Of a stretch of 64,000 bases of DNA, positions 14,239 through 22,477 are shown piece by piece. Under the pieces are notes generated by a model. The model saw only the letters and a list, made by a program, of their open reading frames with translations. It ran no database searches and was not told the origin of the DNA. The stretch comes from Phocicoccus schoeneichii (GTDB taxonomy: Bacteria; Bacillota; Bacilli; Staphylococcales; Salinicoccaceae), in assembly GCF_014635565.1 (NCBI RefSeq), contig NZ_BMDB01000001.1, positions 310,001 to 374,000 of the forward strand. Reading direction: 5' to 3'. Within the stretch, counting starts at the first letter, position 1. Each line of letters begins with the position of its first letter. The position numbers were made by a program, and so were the translations under genes.

Positions 14239-15723
14239 CTATTTTTTCTCTTCAATAATTTCTTCACGATCAAAACGTAGAACTGGTTGACGTGCTGCTT
14301 TTGTTTCATCAAGTCTACCAATTACAGTATCATGAGGAGCTTCAAGTACTAAATCAAGATCTTCCTCTACTTCTTTCGCAATATTTAACATGGCGTCTAT
14401 GAAGTTGTCTAAAGTTTCTTTAGATTCAGTTTCAGTTGGCTCGATCATAAGTCCCTCTTCCACGTTTAATGGGAAGTAAATTGTAGGTGGGTGGAAGCTA
14501 TAGTCTAATAGTCTTTTCGCTATGTCTAATGTTCTTGCACCTTGTTTCTTTTGTTTAGAACCACTTAATACGAACTCATGTTTACAATGTTGATCGTATG
14601 GAAGTTCATAAGTACCTTCTAATCTACGCATAATGTAGTTTGCATTTAATACAGCATCTTCAGAAACTTTCTTTAGTCCGTCTGGTCCCATTGTTCTAAT
14701 GTACGTGTAAGCACGTAAGTAGATACCAAAGTTACCAAAGTATGGTTTAACGCGTCCAATACTTTGTGGTAGATCGTAATCTAGTTTGAAAGTATCTTCT
14801 TCTTTAACAATTAAAGGTTTTGGTAAGAATTTTGCTAAATCAGCTTTAACCCCAATTGGACCTGAACCAGGACCACCACCACCGTGTGGACCAGTGAATG
14901 TTTTATGAAGGTTTAAGTGAACTGCGTCAAAGCCCATGTCTCCAGGACGTACTTTAGACATGATTGCGTTTAAGTTCGCACCATCATAGTATAGTTTACC
15001 ACCAGCTTCGTGAACGATATCTCTAATTTCTAAGATATCTTTTTCGAATAAACCTAAAGTGTTAGGGTTAGTTAGCATGATTGCAGCTGTGTCATCTCCA
15101 ACTACTCTCTTTAAGTCGTCGATGTCTACTAAACCTTTTTCATTTGATTTAACTGTTACTGTATCGAAACCAGCTACAGTCGCTGAGGCAGGATTTGTAC
15201 CGTGTGCTGAGTCAGGAACGATAACTTTTGTTCTCTTATGGTCACCATTAGCTTCGTGGTAAGCCTTAATCATCATTAACGCTGTCCACTCACCTTGAGC
15301 ACCTGCTGCAGATTGTAATGAAATTTCATCCATACCAGTAATCTCTTTAAGAGATTCTTGTAAGTCATGAACAATTTCTAATGAACCTTGGATTGCTTTT
15401 TCATTTTGAAGTGGATGAGATGTAGCAAATCCATCAATTCTAGCAACCTTTTCGTTAATTTTTGGGTTGTACTTCATCGTACAAGATCCTAATGGATAGA
15501 ATCCAGTGTCGATACCCCAGTTTTTATTTGAAAGTTCAGTGTAGTGTCTGATTAAATCTAACTCACTGATTTCAGGTAATTCTGCTTTAGTCTTACGGAT
15601 AAATTTATCATCTAATAAAGAGTTAATATCTTTAGTCTCTACATCCACTGGTGGAAGTGAGTAAGCAAATCTATCTGCAATACTTCTTTCGAATATTAAT
15701 GGGCTCGCATCTTTTCTAGCCAT
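14239..15723 (-). CDS. gcvPB: Glycine dehydrogenase (decarboxylating) subunit 2
   Basis: This is the PLP-binding half of the split P protein of the glycine cleavage system, which decarboxylates glycine and passes the aminomethyl group to lipoyl-GcvH. The 494-residue protein has the PLP lysine in [17 protein letters not shown], as expected for subunit 2. The ATG at 15723 (MARKDASP) has AGGTG 7 bp upstream and overlaps the end of gcvPA by 8 bp. It is the last gene of gcvT-gcvPA-gcvPB. Confidence 0.96.
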
Positions 15724-17059
15724 TATATTCACCTAACCTTTCAACAAATTCATCAATTTCGTCTTTAGTACGAAGTTCAGTAACTGCAACTAACATGTGG
15801 TTTTTATACTCATCAAAGCTTAGGCCTAAGTCGTATCCACCGATAAAACCACTGTCATATAACTCATCGTTGATTTCAGTTACGTCTTTATTTAATTTAA
15901 CAACAAACTCGTTAAAGTTCCGATCTTCTAATACTTCAAATCCTGCAGCTTTAAATGCTTCTTTAGCATAGTGAGATTTTTGAATGTTTGCTTCAGCCAT
16001 TTCAACTACACCATACTTACCAAGAGCACTCATTGCGATAGATGAAGCAAGTGCATTTAATGCTTGGTTAGAACAGATGTTAGAAGTCGCTTTTTCACGA
16101 CGGATATGCTGTTCACGTGCTTGTAGAGTTAATACAAAACCACGTCTTCCTTCGTCATCTGTCGTTTGACCAACTAAACGACCAGGCATTCTTCTCATTA
16201 GTTTTTTCGTTGCTGCAAAGAATCCACAGTGTGGTCCACCAAATTGTGCTGGAATACCAAATACTTGAGTATCACCAGTTACAATGTCTGCACCGAATTC
16301 ACCTGGAGGTGTTAATAATGAAAGAGCAAGAGGATTACTGTTTACAACGAATAATCCTTTACCTTTATGAGCTATTTTTTCGATTTCTTCCAAGTCTTCG
16401 ATTGTTCCGAAGAAGTTAGGATATTGTACAAGTACTGCAGCTGTATCTGCATCTACAAGTTCATCTAATTTTGTAATGTCAGTTTTTGTTCCATCAAGAG
16501 GTGCAACAACTACTTCAATGTTTTGACCCGCACAGTAAGTTTTAACAACTTCTAATGATTGTGGGTGAACTGATTCAGAAATTACAATTTTCTTCTTACG
16601 AGTTGCACCTGCTGCCATCGTAGCAGCTTCTGCGAATGCAGTTGGACCATCATACATTGATGAGTTTGCTACAGGTAGTGCCGTTAACTCAGAAATGAGT
16701 GTTTGGAACTCGAAGATTGCTTGTAATTCACCTTGTGAAACTTCAGGTTGATACGGCGTATAAGCTGTATAGAACTCTGAACGTGAAATAATCGAATCTA
16801 CTACTGATGGAATATAGTGATCATATACACCAGCACCTAAGAAAGATGAATGTGTAGTTGATGTGATATTCTTGCTTGCAATTTTGTTTAACTCTTTAAG
16901 TAAAGAGTACTCGTCTTTCGCAGGCTTAATGTTTAAATCACCTTCGAAACGAACTGATTCAGGAATGTCACTGAATAGTTCAGAGATATCACTTACACCA
17001 ATCGCTTGCAACATCTCTTGTTTGTCTTTTTCTGTTACTGGTAAATAACGATGACTCAT
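15716..17059 (-). CDS. gcvPA: Glycine dehydrogenase (decarboxylating) subunit 1
   Basis: This 447-residue protein is the N-terminal-type half of the two-subunit P protein found in Firmicutes. It has the aminotransferase-like fold with segments such as [13 protein letters not shown] and [20 protein letters not shown], and it lacks the PLP lysine, which is carried by gcvPB. AAGGAG precedes the ATG. It follows gcvT by 29 bp and overlaps gcvPB, so the three subunits should be made together. Confidence 0.96.
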
Positions 17060-17088: not shown

Positions 17089-18162
17089 TTATTTAAAGTT
17101 TTTAACAAATTTAGCTGGGACTTCCCTATTACGAACTTTAATAACAAATTCTTTGTCTAGTTCAAAGAAGTCATTGTCAACTAGAACAAAACCAAATGAT
17201 TTCTTAGTAGATGGTGATTGTGTACCACTTGTAACTTCTCCAACCTTGTTTCCGTCGTTGTCGAATACTTCATAACCAGTACGTGCAATACCTTTACCAG
17301 TGATTTCGAATTTACCACTGCGTCTTTTAACACCATTTTCTTTTTGATCTTTAAGTACTTCTTGACCAATGAAATCACCTTTGTCCACTTTAACGGCGAA
17401 ACCTAGTTTTGCTTCTAATGGAGTGATTTCTGGAGTAAGTTCTTGACCATGTAATGGTAAACCTGCTTCCATTCTTAAAGTATCACGTGCACCAAGTCCA
17501 CATTCTACTGCGCCTAGTTCTTTAAACTTTTTCCATAAAGGAAGAACATCTTCAGGCTTTGTATATAGCTCAAATCCATCTTCTCCAGTGTATCCACTTT
17601 GAGAAAGAATAACATTGAAACCATCAACTTCAACATCTTGTTTAAAGTTGAACATACCCATTTCACTGATGTCTTCATCAGTTAATGATTGAATTAATTT
17701 GCGTGCATTTGGTCCTTGAATAGCGATTTGTCCATAATCACTTGATACGTTTTCAACTGTTACGTCAAAACCATCAACCTTTTTAAGCCATTCAAAGTCA
17801 TGCTCTGTATTTGCAGCGTTTGGAACTAAAAGATAGTCATTTTCTGCAAGTTTGTAGATTACTAAGTCGTCCTCTACTCCACCTTTTTCATTACAAATGA
17901 ATGTGTATTGTGCTTTATCTAATGATAATTTTGTTACATCATTTGTAAGTGTGTAGTTTGCAAACTTTTCAGCATCTGGACCAGTTATTCTAATTTCACC
18001 CATATGAGATACATCAAATATACCAACGTCTTCTCTTACTGCATTGTGTTCATCTTTGATGCTAGTAAATGATACAGGCATTTCCCAACCACCAAAGTCT
18101 ACAAGTTTTGCACCGACTTCGTGATAGTAATCATTCAATGGTGTTTTCTTTAATTCACCCAT
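17089..18162 (-). CDS. gcvT: Aminomethyltransferase (glycine cleavage T protein)
   Basis: GcvT takes the aminomethyl group from lipoyl-GcvH, makes 5,10-methylene-tetrahydrofolate and releases ammonia. From the ATG at 18162, which has AGGAGG 5 bp upstream, the protein is 357 residues. It has the folate-binding domain with [11 protein letters not shown] and [12 protein letters not shown], and the GCVT C-terminal barrel. A longer in-frame reading runs into the terminator hairpin of the riboswitch leader and is rejected. It is the first gene of the gcv operon and is probably controlled by glycine. Confidence 0.96.
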
Positions 18163-18180
18163 AATATCCTCCTTAAATAT

Positions 18181-18212
18181 AAAAAACAGAACAATAACCA
18201 AATATTGCCCTG
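18181..18212 (-). terminator. Riboswitch expression-platform terminator
   Basis: On the minus strand CAGGGCAAT (18212-18204) pairs with ATTGTTCTG (18195-18187), including two G-U pairs, and is followed by six T. It lies between the glycine aptamer and gcvT. An upstream CCTG (18227-18224) could pair with the CAGG of the 5' arm and act as an alternative fold. Confidence 0.7.
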
Positions 18213-18225
18213 TTGAATTTCTTCA

Positions 18226-18320
18226 GGATTACGTCCCAGTGCCGTCCTTTTGCCTGAGAGATTCACCTTGCGGCTTGCTCCTTCGGCGACGAATAACGTT
18301 CTCTCCAGCACTGTTCATCC
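18226..18320 (-). promoter_or_regulatory. Single-aptamer glycine riboswitch
   Basis: The minus strand carries the conserved glycine aptamer elements in order: GGAGAG, CGCCGAAGGAGCAA, and AATCTCTCAGGCAAAAGGAC. They are closed by a P1 helix CAGTGC/GCACTG (18313-18308 with 18242-18237). An outer helix GGAT/ATCC (18320-18317 with 18229-18226) flanks it and looks like the P0/kink-turn support helix. Only one aptamer fits in the roughly 130-nt leader, whereas the well-known gcvT riboswitch of B. subtilis is tandem. Confidence 0.93.
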
Positions 18321-18346
18321 GTACATATTCTTTTGTATCCGTATAC

Positions 18347-18376
18347 ATTATATCTTTAATCTGTAAGGAATAGCAA
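18347..18376 (-). promoter_or_regulatory. Probable promoter of gcv operon
   Basis: On the minus strand TTGCTA (18376-18371), an 18-bp spacer and a perfect TATAAT (18352-18347) lie just upstream of the glycine aptamer. This would start the transcript about 20 nt before the riboswitch. Confidence 0.55.
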
Positions 18377-18392
18377 GCGAATTGAGTTTATA

Positions 18393-18878
18393 TTATTTTT
18401 TATGCATAAGTATATTGTGAATAATTTCATTAACACTCTCAGAACCATTAATAGAATAATCAGACAGCTCTTTATATAGAGGGATTCTATGCTCGAAAAT
18501 TTTCTTTAAATCTGATTTCTTAGACTTAGTTAAAGGTCTGTTTTCATCGTTTTTAATTCTGTTAAAAGAAATCTCAAACGGAATTTCCAAATAAAAAATA
18601 TCTTTAGAAATATTTTTTAGTAAATCGAAAGAATCTGGATATGTAATAATGCCTCCACCTGTAGAAATGATTGCATCTTTTTCAATTACATTTTTTAGGG
18701 TCTCATATTCTCTTTGTCTAAATCCCGCTTCACCAAACTTATTAAAAATATCTGGAATTTTCATATTATTTTCTAAAACAATTTGCTGGTCTAAATCAAT
18801 AAATGGTTTATCGAGAATTTTTGCAAGCTCTATTCCAACTGTTGTTTTTCCTGATCCCATAAATCCAATTAAAATCAT
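18393..18878 (-). CDS. aroK: Shikimate kinase
   Basis: Shikimate kinase phosphorylates shikimate in chorismate and aromatic amino acid synthesis. The 161-residue protein has the P-loop GFMGSGKTTVG near the N-terminus, the shikimate-binding DLD, the STGGG loop, and the LID arginine region RPLTK. AGGTG lies 5 bp upstream of the ATG. It sits between comGF and the gcv operon, the arrangement also known in staphylococci. No other shikimate gene is in the window. Confidence 0.92.
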   Translation of the reverse strand: MILIGFMGSGKTTVGIELAKILDKPFIDLDQQIVLENNMKIPDIFNKFGEAGFRQREYETLKNVIEKDAIISTGGGIITYPDSFDLLKNISKDIFYLEIPFEISFNRIKNDENRPLTKSKKSDLKKIFEHRIPLYKELSDYSINGSESVNEIIHNILMHKK

Positions 18879-19033: not shown

Positions 19034-19513
19034 TCATTGTTTTTTAATAGCAATTTCAAATGTTTTCTTTCCTCCTACATTAACTCTGAAAACATCTTTT
19101 GTTTCTTCAACATCAAATTTTGATACATCATACATTAGAGTAATAAAACCATCGTTATTCACAGACTTTATTAGTCTTTTATCAAAATAACGATAGTTTA
19201 TTTTTCTTTTATCATTTTGTATTTGTATCTCTCTATCTGAAATTTTCTTAACATCATATTCTTCTGTTACATTTATTTCGCTATATATATCTAAAATAAA
19301 TATGTCTATATCAAAATTATCAGCAGGTACTTTTACTTTTAGAAAGAACTGCAAGATAATTGGGAATAACGTGATAATGACAGATATTAAAAATAATGAA
19401 ATGAGTACTTCAAGTAATGTGAATCCATCATTCTTTTTTAACTGATTCAATGCACCACGTCCCTTCTTTGTTACAAACATATCCAGATTTGATAAAATAT
19501 TTATTACTTTCAT
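19034..19513 (-). CDS. comGF: Competence pseudopilin ComGF-like
   Basis: The protein has a type IV prepilin signal KKNDGFTLLEVLISLF with the conserved Gly-Phe and Glu(+5), followed by one long hydrophobic helix. It corresponds in position and character to ComGF, a minor pseudopilin of the DNA-uptake pilus. The start is uncertain: ATG at 19513 has only a weak site, while TTG at 19450 would give a short leader typical of prepilins and has AAGGG upstream. It is the last recognisable com gene; I see no comGG before aroK. Confidence 0.78.
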   Translation of the reverse strand: MKVINILSNLDMFVTKKGRGALNQLKKNDGFTLLEVLISLFLISVIITLFPIILQFFLKVKVPADNFDIDIFILDIYSEINVTEEYDVKKISDREIQIQNDKRKINYRYFDKRLIKSVNNDGFITLMYDVSKFDVEETKDVFRVNVGGKKTFEIAIKKQ

Positions 19514-19769
19514 TAAAATCTAGACCTGAATTAAGGTCAATATACAGTGTTCTATAGAATTCTAACTTTTGAGAAGACTCTTCTTCCAAGCGATGTGCGC
19601 CAATTACTGCTGGAATGAGCAAAGAGACAATTAGACTTATGATAAATACAGACATCAAACTATCAACAAGTAAGAATCCTTTATTCGATCCGAAATCTAC
19701 CTTTTTGAATTTGGAATATAAGTTTTGAATTTTTATTTTTACAAGATAAATAAATTGTTCCAAATGCAC
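19428..19769 (-). CDS. comGE: Competence pseudopilin ComGE-like
   Basis: This 113-residue minor pseudopilin has the prepilin segment SNKGFLLVDSLMSVF, where Asp replaces the usual Glu at +5, followed by a membrane helix. Two cysteines near the C-terminus (VCNKEGTWC) could form a disulfide. The start is GTG at 19769, strongly supported by AAAGGAG 6 bp upstream, even though this makes an 89-bp overlap with comGD. The long leader before the cleavage site (about 30 residues) is unusual. Confidence 0.77.
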   Translation of the reverse strand: MHLEQFIYLVKIKIQNLYSKFKKVDFGSNKGFLLVDSLMSVFIISLIVSLLIPAVIGAHRLEEESSQKLEFYRTLYIDLNSGLDFNESNKYFIKSGYVCNKEGTWCIESVKKE

Positions 19770-20109
19770 TCGAATCTCCTTTATTATTAAATGTAAATTG
19801 AGTGAGGCTACCTTCTTTTAGTATGCAATGATTAATTTTTAATACCTCCCTAGAATTATCTTTTGTATCAAGAGAGGTTATTTGGTTGGTTTGATAATCA
19901 ATACGCACTAATACTAAACTCTCTTTACGCATCGCATCAAATTGCTTTTTCTCTAGGAAATACTTAATATTTTGAACTTCATCCAGACTATGATTATTTT
20001 CAAATTTTGGAATATGCACTATGGTAATAAAGAGAAGAATGCTCACGACAAATAGCGTGAGCATCGTTTCTACAAGTGTAAAACCATCATTCTCGAGTTG
20101 CTTGTCCAT
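19681..20109 (-). CDS. comGD: Competence pseudopilin ComGD-like
   Basis: ComGD is a minor pseudopilin of the competence pilus. The prepilin signal LENDGFTLVETMLTLF with Glu at +5 precedes a hydrophobic helix and a globular C-terminal part. I prefer the ATG at 20109 (MDKQLENDGF), which gives a short leader and a 23-bp overlap with comGC. An upstream in-frame GTG at 20139 also exists, and neither has a strong ribosome site. Processing needs a prepilin peptidase (ComC) encoded elsewhere. Confidence 0.78.
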   Translation of the reverse strand: MDKQLENDGFTLVETMLTLFVVSILLFITIVHIPKFENNHSLDEVQNIKYFLEKKQFDAMRKESLVLVRIDYQTNQITSLDTKDNSREVLKINHCILKEGSLTQFTFNNKGDSSAFGTIYLSCKNKNSKLIFQIQKGRFRIE

Positions 20110-20416
20110 TAACAATCGTAATAGAGTCTCCATTCGCACATGCAGTCTGGTTAGTAGTTAGATAATCCGGTACGAGTTGTGATATAGACGTTGGTGCGAT
20201 ACCTTCATTTAGTGTATAAGCTTCAATTTGCCCTTGTACAACTTTCACTTGAGCAGAGCATCCAGTTTCTTGAACATTCTTACTTTGCGCTGCAATATTA
20301 GGGATGATTAAAATAATAAGCACAGATATTACGAGAAGTACGAGTAACATTTCTATCAGAGTAAAACCATCATTTTTCTTTCCATTTAAAATTGCTTTTT
20401 TGAATACATTTCTCAT
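20087..20416 (-). CDS. comGC: Major competence pseudopilin ComGC
   Basis: ComGC is the main subunit of the competence pilus that captures DNA. The 109-residue precursor has a leader ending KKND, then GFTLIEMLLVLLVISVLI, the typical prepilin cleavage and assembly helix with Glu +5. Two cysteines in the mature part (ETGCSAQ and TACANG) match the intramolecular disulfide pair of ComGC. AGGAGG lies 7 bp before the ATG. It lies 11 bp after comGB. Confidence 0.9.
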   Translation of the reverse strand: MRNVFKKAILNGKKNDGFTLIEMLLVLLVISVLIILIIPNIAAQSKNVQETGCSAQVKVVQGQIEAYTLNEGIAPTSISQLVPDYLTTNQTACANGDSITIVNGQATRE

Positions 20417-20427
20417 TTAGAGACCTC

Positions 20428-21483
20428 CTAATTTAGTTGGGACATCATTTGGAATACTGGGAGCACAATGACTAGATATAAACAAACAATTAAAAGACCT
20501 ATCACAGAAAAAATAACAGGTTGAATTCTTGAAGTTGTTCTCTCAATTCTTAAAATCATATTTTCAATCGTGTACTCACTATATAAGAGAAGTTCTTTAC
20601 CTACATTAGAATTAATTTCTCCATGTTTTATAAAAGCATATATCTTATGATCTAAGTACTTTGTCTCGTTAACGGACTCAGAGAACGACAAGCCTTGTAC
20701 TATTCCCATTTCGATATGTTCTGCAATTATTTTTAAGTATGGATTTAGATCCTGTTCTTTAAAAATATCGATGATAACTTTTAGTTCAATTCCACTCTTT
20801 ATGAGGTATCCAACCTCTCGAGCAAATTTATGTGAAATATAATATTTAAAATAGGTTCTTAATATAGGTACTTTGCTTACAATTAAGAGAGTCTTATATT
20901 TATTCTTTTGATTTAAAATTAATGTGAAGGTGATAACTATGACTATGGCGATTAAAAAAGTGACAAGTGCAACTTTAGGTAAAGTATTTAAAATACTCAC
21001 AAGCACTTTTATTAGTGTTCCTTTTTCTGCATTCATAGATAAAAACAGGGAGTTAAATTGAGGAATAACCGTGTAGTTTAAAATCACAAGCATTACGACA
21101 AAGATAGAAAGCAAGATGAGAGGGTATTGAACAGCTTTCATTATATTTTTGATCGTCTCTCTTCTTTTTTTCAAATAAACACTAGTTTCAATCAGATTAG
21201 ATATAATTTCTCCATGAACATCTGCAAACTGTGTTTGTGAAATAACAGAGTTTCTAAACCCAAGAAACTTCAATACATCTGCCAAGCTATTTCCATTTTC
21301 AGCCATTTTGATGCCTATGTTTGTTTCAGACACTTTTAGCACATCATATTGTTTAAATAAAAATATAAGTGCATCTCTTTGCGTAAATCCATTTTGAAGT
21401 AATTCAGCAAGCTTTAACAAAAAGTCTGCATCATACTTTTTAAGTCTGTTCGAGTGTTTCTTTGAACGAGTGGTATTCTTCAT
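20428..21483 (-). CDS. comGB: Competence pilus membrane platform protein ComGB
   Basis: ComGB is the inner-membrane platform protein (GspF/PilC family) on which the competence pseudopilus is assembled. The 351-residue protein has three strong hydrophobic segments (about residues 116-138, 160-190 and 325-345) and two cytoplasmic T2SSF-type helical domains. Its start lies 44 bp inside comGA, behind GGGGTG, so translation is coupled to the ATPase. The com genes are silent in most conditions in related bacteria. Confidence 0.88.
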   Translation of the reverse strand: MKNTTRSKKHSNRLKKYDADFLLKLAELLQNGFTQRDALIFLFKQYDVLKVSETNIGIKMAENGNSLADVLKFLGFRNSVISQTQFADVHGEIISNLIETSVYLKKRRETIKNIMKAVQYPLILLSIFVVMLVILNYTVIPQFNSLFLSMNAEKGTLIKVLVSILNTLPKVALVTFLIAIVIVITFTLILNQKNKYKTLLIVSKVPILRTYFKYYISHKFAREVGYLIKSGIELKVIIDIFKEQDLNPYLKIIAEHIEMGIVQGLSFSESVNETKYLDHKIYAFIKHGEINSNVGKELLLYSEYTIENMILRIERTTSRIQPVIFSVIGLLIVCLYLVIVLPVFQMMSQLN

Positions 21484-22438
21484 GAGAAATCACCCCTTCT
21501 TTAAATAAGTCTTCTACTTTCGATGATATCGTTTTGATTTCAACATGCTCACCATTAAGTATTTTTGTGATTCCATCTTGATTAAGTGCTTCATACACAA
21601 TGAACGTTTCATTTTTGAAATGTAAAATGCGTTGATTAATAATTAGAGTTAGAGACTCTCTTAATTCTTCATTCAACAAATCAAATTCTTTTAAACGCAT
21701 GAGTGCACTGACGGCACTTTTAGAATGAAATGTTGAAATAACAAGATGACCAGATAGACTTGCTCGAACGAGTTCTTTTGCAATCTTTTTGTCTCGGATT
21801 TCTCCAAACATGATTACATCAGGATCACAACGTAAAACTCCACGTAAGAGTGGTCCGTAATCAAGTTGTGCTTTTTCATTAATCTCAACTTGAATTACAC
21901 GTTCTAAGTTAAATTCTATTGGATCCTCGATACTAATTACCTGTCTATCTCCAGTTGCAACAATTTCTTCTAATAAACGATACATAACAGTACTTTTACC
22001 TGAACCTGTTGGGCCAGTAAAGAGTATGAGTCCTTGTGTTTGCAACATTTGCTGTTTCAAAAATGTGTAGTCTGAAGAATCTCTAAATAATTCGCTTGAA
22101 GGAATATATTTAGCGCTGTTTAATATGCGTATGACTATGACTTCATTCATCAATGAAACGGGTAATGTAGAAATTCGTATATTCATAAGTTCATCATCTA
22201 CAGTGACTTCTAAGCGACCACTCTGTGGTACACGGTACTCATTAACATCTAGATCTGCAATGAATTTTAGATAGTTTATAAGTTTTTTATAAGACTCTAA
22301 ACTAAGCGTTTGTACATCAATCATTTTTCCTCTTTGTCTTGCGCGAATGATACCTACATCACTTTGATGTATAATATGAATATCTGTAAAATAATTGTCC
22401 TGTGCGTCTTTTAACAATGTGTTTAGTAATGTCTTCAT
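21440..22438 (-). CDS. comGA: Competence pilus assembly ATPase ComGA
   Basis: ComGA is a GspE/PilB-type secretion ATPase that powers pseudopilus assembly. From the ATG at 22438, which has AGGAGG 4 bp upstream, the protein is 332 residues. It shows Walker A FTGPTGSGKSTVMY, an Asp box (SIEDPIEF), Walker B region DVIMFGEIRD and a His box (HLVISTFHS). It is the first gene of comGA-GB-GC-GD-GE-GF. A ComK-type AT-box is present upstream. No other com genes are in the window. Confidence 0.92.
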   Translation of the reverse strand: MKTLLNTLLKDAQDNYFTDIHIIHQSDVGIIRARQRGKMIDVQTLSLESYKKLINYLKFIADLDVNEYRVPQSGRLEVTVDDELMNIRISTLPVSLMNEVIVIRILNSAKYIPSSELFRDSSDYTFLKQQMLQTQGLILFTGPTGSGKSTVMYRLLEEIVATGDRQVISIEDPIEFNLERVIQVEINEKAQLDYGPLLRGVLRCDPDVIMFGEIRDKKIAKELVRASLSGHLVISTFHSKSAVSALMRLKEFDLLNEELRESLTLIINQRILHFKNETFIVYEALNQDGITKILNGEHVEIKTISSKVEDLFKEGVISHEEYHSFKETLEQT

Positions 22439-22464
22439 ATGTCCTCCTATATACATATACTTAA

Positions 22465-22477
22465 AAAACATGCTTTT
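22465..22477. promoter_or_regulatory. Possible ComK AT-box upstream of comGA
   Basis: The sequence AAAACATGCTTTT fits the AAAA-N5-TTTT AT-box bound by ComK. It lies 27 bp upstream of the comGA ATG. A normal K-box needs two AT-boxes at defined spacing, and the second here is degenerate, so this is weak. Confidence 0.3.

Follow-up and report, generated by a model that had tools for sequence, protein, structure and literature searches.

The gcvT leader in the window (the whole stretch of 64,000 nucleotides that was analysed) is a textbook type-1 singlet glycine riboswitch, a kind that has already been described, from a lineage that usually has singlets. We are highly confident that it controls gcvT-gcvPA-gcvPB by transcription termination and that it does so as an ON switch, the direction predicted below. 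The value of the assignment lies mostly in annotation.

A lone aptamer, here and across the order

The first-pass annotation had counted a single glycine aptamer in this leader and proposed a covariance search as the check. That search, an Rfam scan of the 64-kb window, gave one RF00504 match on the minus strand (18318-18232; E value 2.8e-13), whose 72.8 bits exceed the gathering score of 32. By cmscan the match spans the full model, positions 1-94, which makes the element a member of the glycine aptamers. A permissive Rfam scan of the 801 bases around it returned no second RF00504 match at E<=10 (an overlapping match from the same clan, with a lower score, was omitted), and an Rfam search of the 1.78 Mb assembly, which is about 92% complete, returned no further glycine aptamer elsewhere. 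The count of one therefore stands, and two aptamers in a row are not found in the gcvT leader. A hidden second aptamer there is ruled out by the permissive scan up to an E value of 10; the distance from aptamer to ATG is only about 70 nt, too short for another complete aptamer and a terminator. The span originally annotated, 18187-18320, does cover the aptamer, but the strand was missing from it, and of the four bases in the 5' strand of P0 it left three (18323-18321) outside. The layout of the locus, all on the minus strand, is as follows.

18347-18376, minus: promoter-like element TTGCTA-N18-TATAAT (consensus scan and family conservation)
18320-18323, minus: 5' strand of P0 (the kink-turn C-stem), UACG, pairing with 18233-18230 (comparative counts)
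18315-18319, minus: putative kink-turn loop GAU (18319-18317) and first GA of the tandem G.A pairs (18316-18315); GA in 82 of 84 leaders, kink-turn by analogy to the tandem leader-linker
18232-18318, minus: single glycine aptamer, RF00504 (cmscan, 72.8 bits, model 1-94)
18307-18313, minus: P1 5' strand, pairing with 18243-18237 (98.9% of cells paired in 80 distinct leaders)
18237-18243, minus: P1 3' strand (pairing counts over leaders and fold)
18234-18235, minus: second GA of the tandem G.A pairs (75 of 84 leaders have GA, 8 have AA and 1 has something else)
18230-18233, minus: P0 3' strand, CGUA (comparative counts and fold)
18209-18227, minus: ghost-aptamer P1 hairpin, a proposed antiterminator, made of CCUG (18227-18224), a loop and CAGG (18212-18209) (conservation, and the place of aptamer-2 P1 in tandems)
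18185-18214, minus: intrinsic terminator stem-loop, its 5' arm including the CAGG strand of ghost P1 (terminator scan and fold, -12.5 kcal/mol)
18181-18186, minus: terminator T tract, its first bases also in the stem (sequence)
18167-18174, minus: ribosome binding site AAGGAGGA (sequence)
17089-18162, minus: gcvT, start ATG at 18162, the listed ORF starting at an upstream TTG (TIGR00528, 396.1 bits)
15716-17059, minus: gcvPA (ORF; NF001696, 660.9 bits)
14239-15732, minus: gcvPB (ORF; NF003346, 781.1 bits)

NCBIfam identifies the genes 3' of the riboswitch as GcvT, GcvPA and GcvPB, which gives the glycine cleavage gene downstream that is expected of a type-1 singlet. By the account of Crum and colleagues (2019; PMC6944388), glycine cleavage genes are what type-1 singletons regulate in 93% of cases. 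On its own the consensus scan for promoters was close to chance (5 sites against 4.1 expected in the region). A spaced motif of the TTGCTA-N18-TATAAT type recurs at the matching place in 32 of the 33 family leaders, the sole exception lying at a contig end with just 58 bases upstream. From this motif the transcript would be expected to start near 18341-18339. Directly upstream of the gcv leader is a shikimate kinase-like gene (18393-18878, minus; 111 bits against an NCBIfam cut-off of 204), and upstream of the gcv operon is what appears, from ORF translations only, to be a comG-like competence pseudopilus operon (19034-22471, minus).

Genomes of this order normally have just one glycine aptamer, while two or more are found in most of the relatives sampled outside the order. 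Exactly one glycine aptamer match was found in all 33 genomes of the source family, which we take to include Jeotgalicoccus, Salinicoccus, Lacicoccus and Nosocomiicoccus. Across the order 147 of 157 genomes gave a match, and in 146 of these it was exactly one, under stricter filters that weak second aptamers could escape; the remaining 10 gave no match above cut-off. Outside the order, at least two aptamers were found in 98 of the 111 genomes with a match in the class sample. The annotation had offered the tandem leaders of Staphylococcus as a contrast; since 146 of the 147 matched genomes of the order have one aptamer, Staphylococcus leaders are probably not tandem and the contrast falls away. 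The order's only genome with two adjacent glycine aptamers (L057, G046; 47.9 and 69.7 bits) was excluded from every singlet count. For the comparisons that follow we read the leaders of 84 of the 146 singlet genomes, the family's 33 in full plus 51 from elsewhere in the order, picked for their score and for breadth; the remaining 62 were only counted.

The outer helix and its probable kink-turn

An outer helix, GGAT/ATCC, had been described as kept in this leader and as resembling the kink-turn support found with singlets. GGAT (18320-18317) is complementary to ATCC (18229-18226) here, and a fold of the longer stretch 18360-18172 picks GGAU/AUCC as P0; a fold from the predicted start picks UACG/CGUA, by a margin of 0.4 kcal/mol. 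Relatives give a clearer answer. Over 80 distinct leaders (the 84 after collapsing), the UACG/CGUA stem has 89.1% of its cells paired against a shuffle mean of 76.2%, a score that none of 500 shuffles reached. The GGAT/ATCC helix has 55.6% of its cells paired; the shuffle mean is 58.8%, and 494 of 500 column shuffles match or beat the real leaders. Slid registers of the UACG/CGUA stem pair in 6.9 to 43.4% of cells, and P1, our positive control, in 98.9%. All four C-stem pairs are present in 26 of the 33 family leaders (55 of the 84 overall), GGAT/ATCC being fully paired in just 9 of the 33, and the relatives' leaders hold a compensatory series in the C-stem: UACG/CGUA, UGCG/CGCA and UUCG/CGAA. 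Shuffling within genera, which let 36 of 1000 trials reach the score of the kink-turn stem, gives it modest support. The conserved P0 is thus probably UACG/CGUA and not GGAT/ATCC: a singlet with a kink-turn P0 was rightly anticipated, in the wrong register.

Some details of the count bear on how it should be read. Two poor rows were retained in the P0 comparison, L075 (where the match is cut differently) and L049 (which has no kink-turn stem at that place). In a first tally of GGAT/ATCC the ghost was unplaced in eight g8 and g9 leaders and misplaced in L067, and these were scored as unpaired; in the tally of 80 distinct leaders the ghost was placed in 84 of 84, and its counts are preferred for the P0 comparison. 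GGAT/ATCC, rejected as the conserved P0 on the pairing counts over relatives, is retained as a possible alternative state. A further copy of GGAT, close to where the transcript is predicted to start, was also considered as the partner of ATCC, but it is present in some genera only: g6 leaders with the repeat tend to have AUUCC, and g6 leaders with AUCC are without it.

The C-stem, the three-base loop GAU and the tandem GA/GA next to P1 are all found in this leader, and together they make up the layout of the leader-linker kink-turn in tandem glycine riboswitches. The leader-linker P0 of the gcvT leader would, by its letters, form such a kink-turn. Excerpts of a study of the Bacillus subtilis tandem gcvT leader (PMC5666159) report the leader-linker kink-turn for tandem riboswitches and state that breaking it abolishes regulation.

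Ghost P1, the terminator and the predicted direction of switching

An adjacent terminator had been annotated, with a CCTG on the aptamer side able to compete for the CAGG of the terminator arm, the whole giving a compact expression platform. All of this was borne out. The hairpin 18214-18185 with its T tract is the one terminator-like hairpin found, where shuffled sequence would give 0.2. The complement of CCTG (18227-18224) is the CAGG (18212-18209) of the terminator 5' arm, and the two strands are nearly invariant: CCUG with CAGG in 76 of the 84 leaders, UCUG with CAGA in 6 and UCUG with CAGG in 2. A ghost stem lies 3' of the aptamer in all 84 leaders, as type 1 would have it, by motif placement. 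The terminator fold re-uses the ghost 3' strand in 84 of 84 leaders, and all four of its bases in 76. Conservation, not covariation, is what supports ghost P1, its pairing score being reached by 219 of 500 shuffles.

Because the CAGG strand is common to both, ghost P1 and the terminator are mutually exclusive, and a ghost P1 that shares CAGG with the terminator 5' arm should act as an antiterminator. As isolated hairpins in this leader the terminator has -12.5 and the ghost -4.2 kcal/mol, with family means of -16.7 and -5.0. Constrained folds of the whole leader give -43.1 kcal/mol for the terminator state and -37.3 for the ghost state, a gap of 5.8, in energies that leave ligand docking and timing out. 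On this modelling, termination is the default state. The terminator being far more stable than the ghost hairpin, read-through would have to come from ligand docking and timing.

We propose the following mechanism. When glycine is absent, CAGG (18212-18209) would quit ghost P1 and enter the terminator at 18214-18185, so that transcription would halt before gcvT. Glycine on the aptamer would hold P1 and the kink-turned P0 (UACG/CGUA), and ghost P1 (CCUG/CAGG) would then dock on the aptamer. Once docked, ghost P1 would withhold CAGG from the terminator and RNA polymerase would read through to the glycine cleavage genes. Glycine is thus predicted to raise read-through, switching ON by antitermination. 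The direction follows from a default of termination, in which glycine would have to hold the ghost, and from the leader anatomy taken with the homologous tandem gcvT leader of B. subtilis, which is an ON switch with the terminator in its off state according to excerpts of its description (PMC5666159). It also agrees with what would be expected of type-1 singlets, given how often these control glycine cleavage genes. If so, what has become of the second sensor, a small hairpin, probably serves to keep the genes expressed at high glycine.

The GGAU/AUCC pairing set aside above could be made to tell the opposite story. It is perfect in this leader, is chosen by the 18360-18172 fold and overlaps CCUG by two bases, and one can picture glycine stabilising it, removing CC from CCUG and freeing CAGG for the terminator, so that the same singlet would be an OFF switch. 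We consider this very improbable: the pairing is missing as such in most relatives (the 9 full cases in 33, the 55.6% of cells and the 494 shuffles given above), and such a switch would shut down glycine breakdown just when there is much glycine to break down, the reverse of the direction measured for the B. subtilis gcvT leader in the excerpted report (PMC5666159). A somewhat better case, though still an unlikely one, can be made for the same kind of pairing as a third, ligand-free leader-linker helix (GGAU/AUCC here, GAAU/AUUC or GGUU/AAUC in relatives) that would be incompatible with both the kink-turn and a complete ghost P1 and favour the terminator. One register over from GGAU/AUCC, where many relatives have GAAU/AUUC, 251 of 320 cells are paired, a score reached by 2 of 1000 free shuffles, and with the better of the two leader-linker registers 42 of 80 leaders are fully paired, which 4 of 1000 free shuffles reach. 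Both signals fade in within-genus shuffles, where 99 of 1000 reach the score of the single shifted register and 144 and 192 of 1000 that of the better register, and the helix requires a register to be chosen clade by clade. Were it true, the kink-turn loop bases would pair with the linker before the ghost, and the singlet would toggle between two exclusive leader-linker helices besides ghost and terminator.

That one of the two usual aptamers is left might also suggest a riboswitch decayed beyond function. We find this scarcely credible, since the full model is matched at 72.8 bits, all 33 examined family genomes keep one aptamer above cut-off, and the platform motifs are conserved across the 84 leaders. 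The ON switch by antitermination is the reading we carry forward.

Singlets, tandems and a probable remnant of aptamer 2

Singlet glycine riboswitches with a 3' ghost aptamer were reportedly described by Ruff and colleagues in 2016 and by Torgerson and colleagues in 2018, the latter work being said to concern helical switching of a singlet on a finely tuned energetic landscape. Set beside the type-1 singlet, our leader is alike in its one aptamer, its 3' ghost stem, its glycine cleavage genes and its terminator platform, and we found no essential difference. With the type-2 singlets and the sodium:alanine symporter OFF switches it has one glycine aptamer in common; in those, as excerpts of Crum et al. 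have it (PMC6944388), the ghost lies on the 5' side of the aptamer and a transporter gene is the target, whereas our leader has a 3' ghost and precedes gcvT.

The tandem gcvT riboswitches of B. subtilis and other Bacilli are alike in aptamer 1 and the kink-turn leader-linker P0. The gcvT target is common to the B. subtilis tandem and our leader, and in the Bacilli tandems, as here, the terminator 5' arm and the second P1 (its 3' strand) have bases in common. What differs is that the aptamer-2 body is absent here and a 19-nt P1-like hairpin is left. In the tandem leaders we sampled from other Bacilli, several of which were confirmed by Rfam to have two aptamers, the linker GACGCA continues into CUCUGGAGAG of aptamer-2 P1. 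That P1 (CUCUG...GGACAGAG) occupies the place of the ghost, and its 3' strand GGACAGAG leads into the terminator where the printed stretch extends (for example L174-L177, L096 and L101). Several singlets of family f3 keep CUCUG/CAGAG as their ghost. Because aptamer-2 P1 sits in the ghost's place in tandems and the f3 ghosts keep these letters, ghost P1 looks like an aptamer 2 eroded to its P1, the rest of which would have been lost in this lineage.

In excerpts of Crum et al. (PMC6944388), a degradation model has singlets as worn-down tandems. The order offers a clean natural series for that published view: nearly every leader is without the aptamer-2 body and keeps its P1 as a probable antiterminator, and some still hold the tandem letters CUCUG/CAGAG. 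The leader in our window, some 160 nt long and with its ghost, kink-turn and terminator defined, is also compact enough to be handy for in vitro transcription.

Two side observations concern other genomes. The tandem leader of an Alteribacillus contig (L096, 1227-1407) has as its best Rfam match RF03166, glycine-GGAnGA, at 111.8 bits. In family f3, where L186 and L187 represent genera g8 and g9, the singlet riboswitch of L186 (1-4718) precedes not gcvT but an operon of the glycine reductase type, with GrdX, thioredoxin reductase, thioredoxin, a GrdE/GrdG-like subunit, selenoprotein A and selenoprotein B; in L187 (1-4732) GrdX and a GrdG-like subunit were confirmed.
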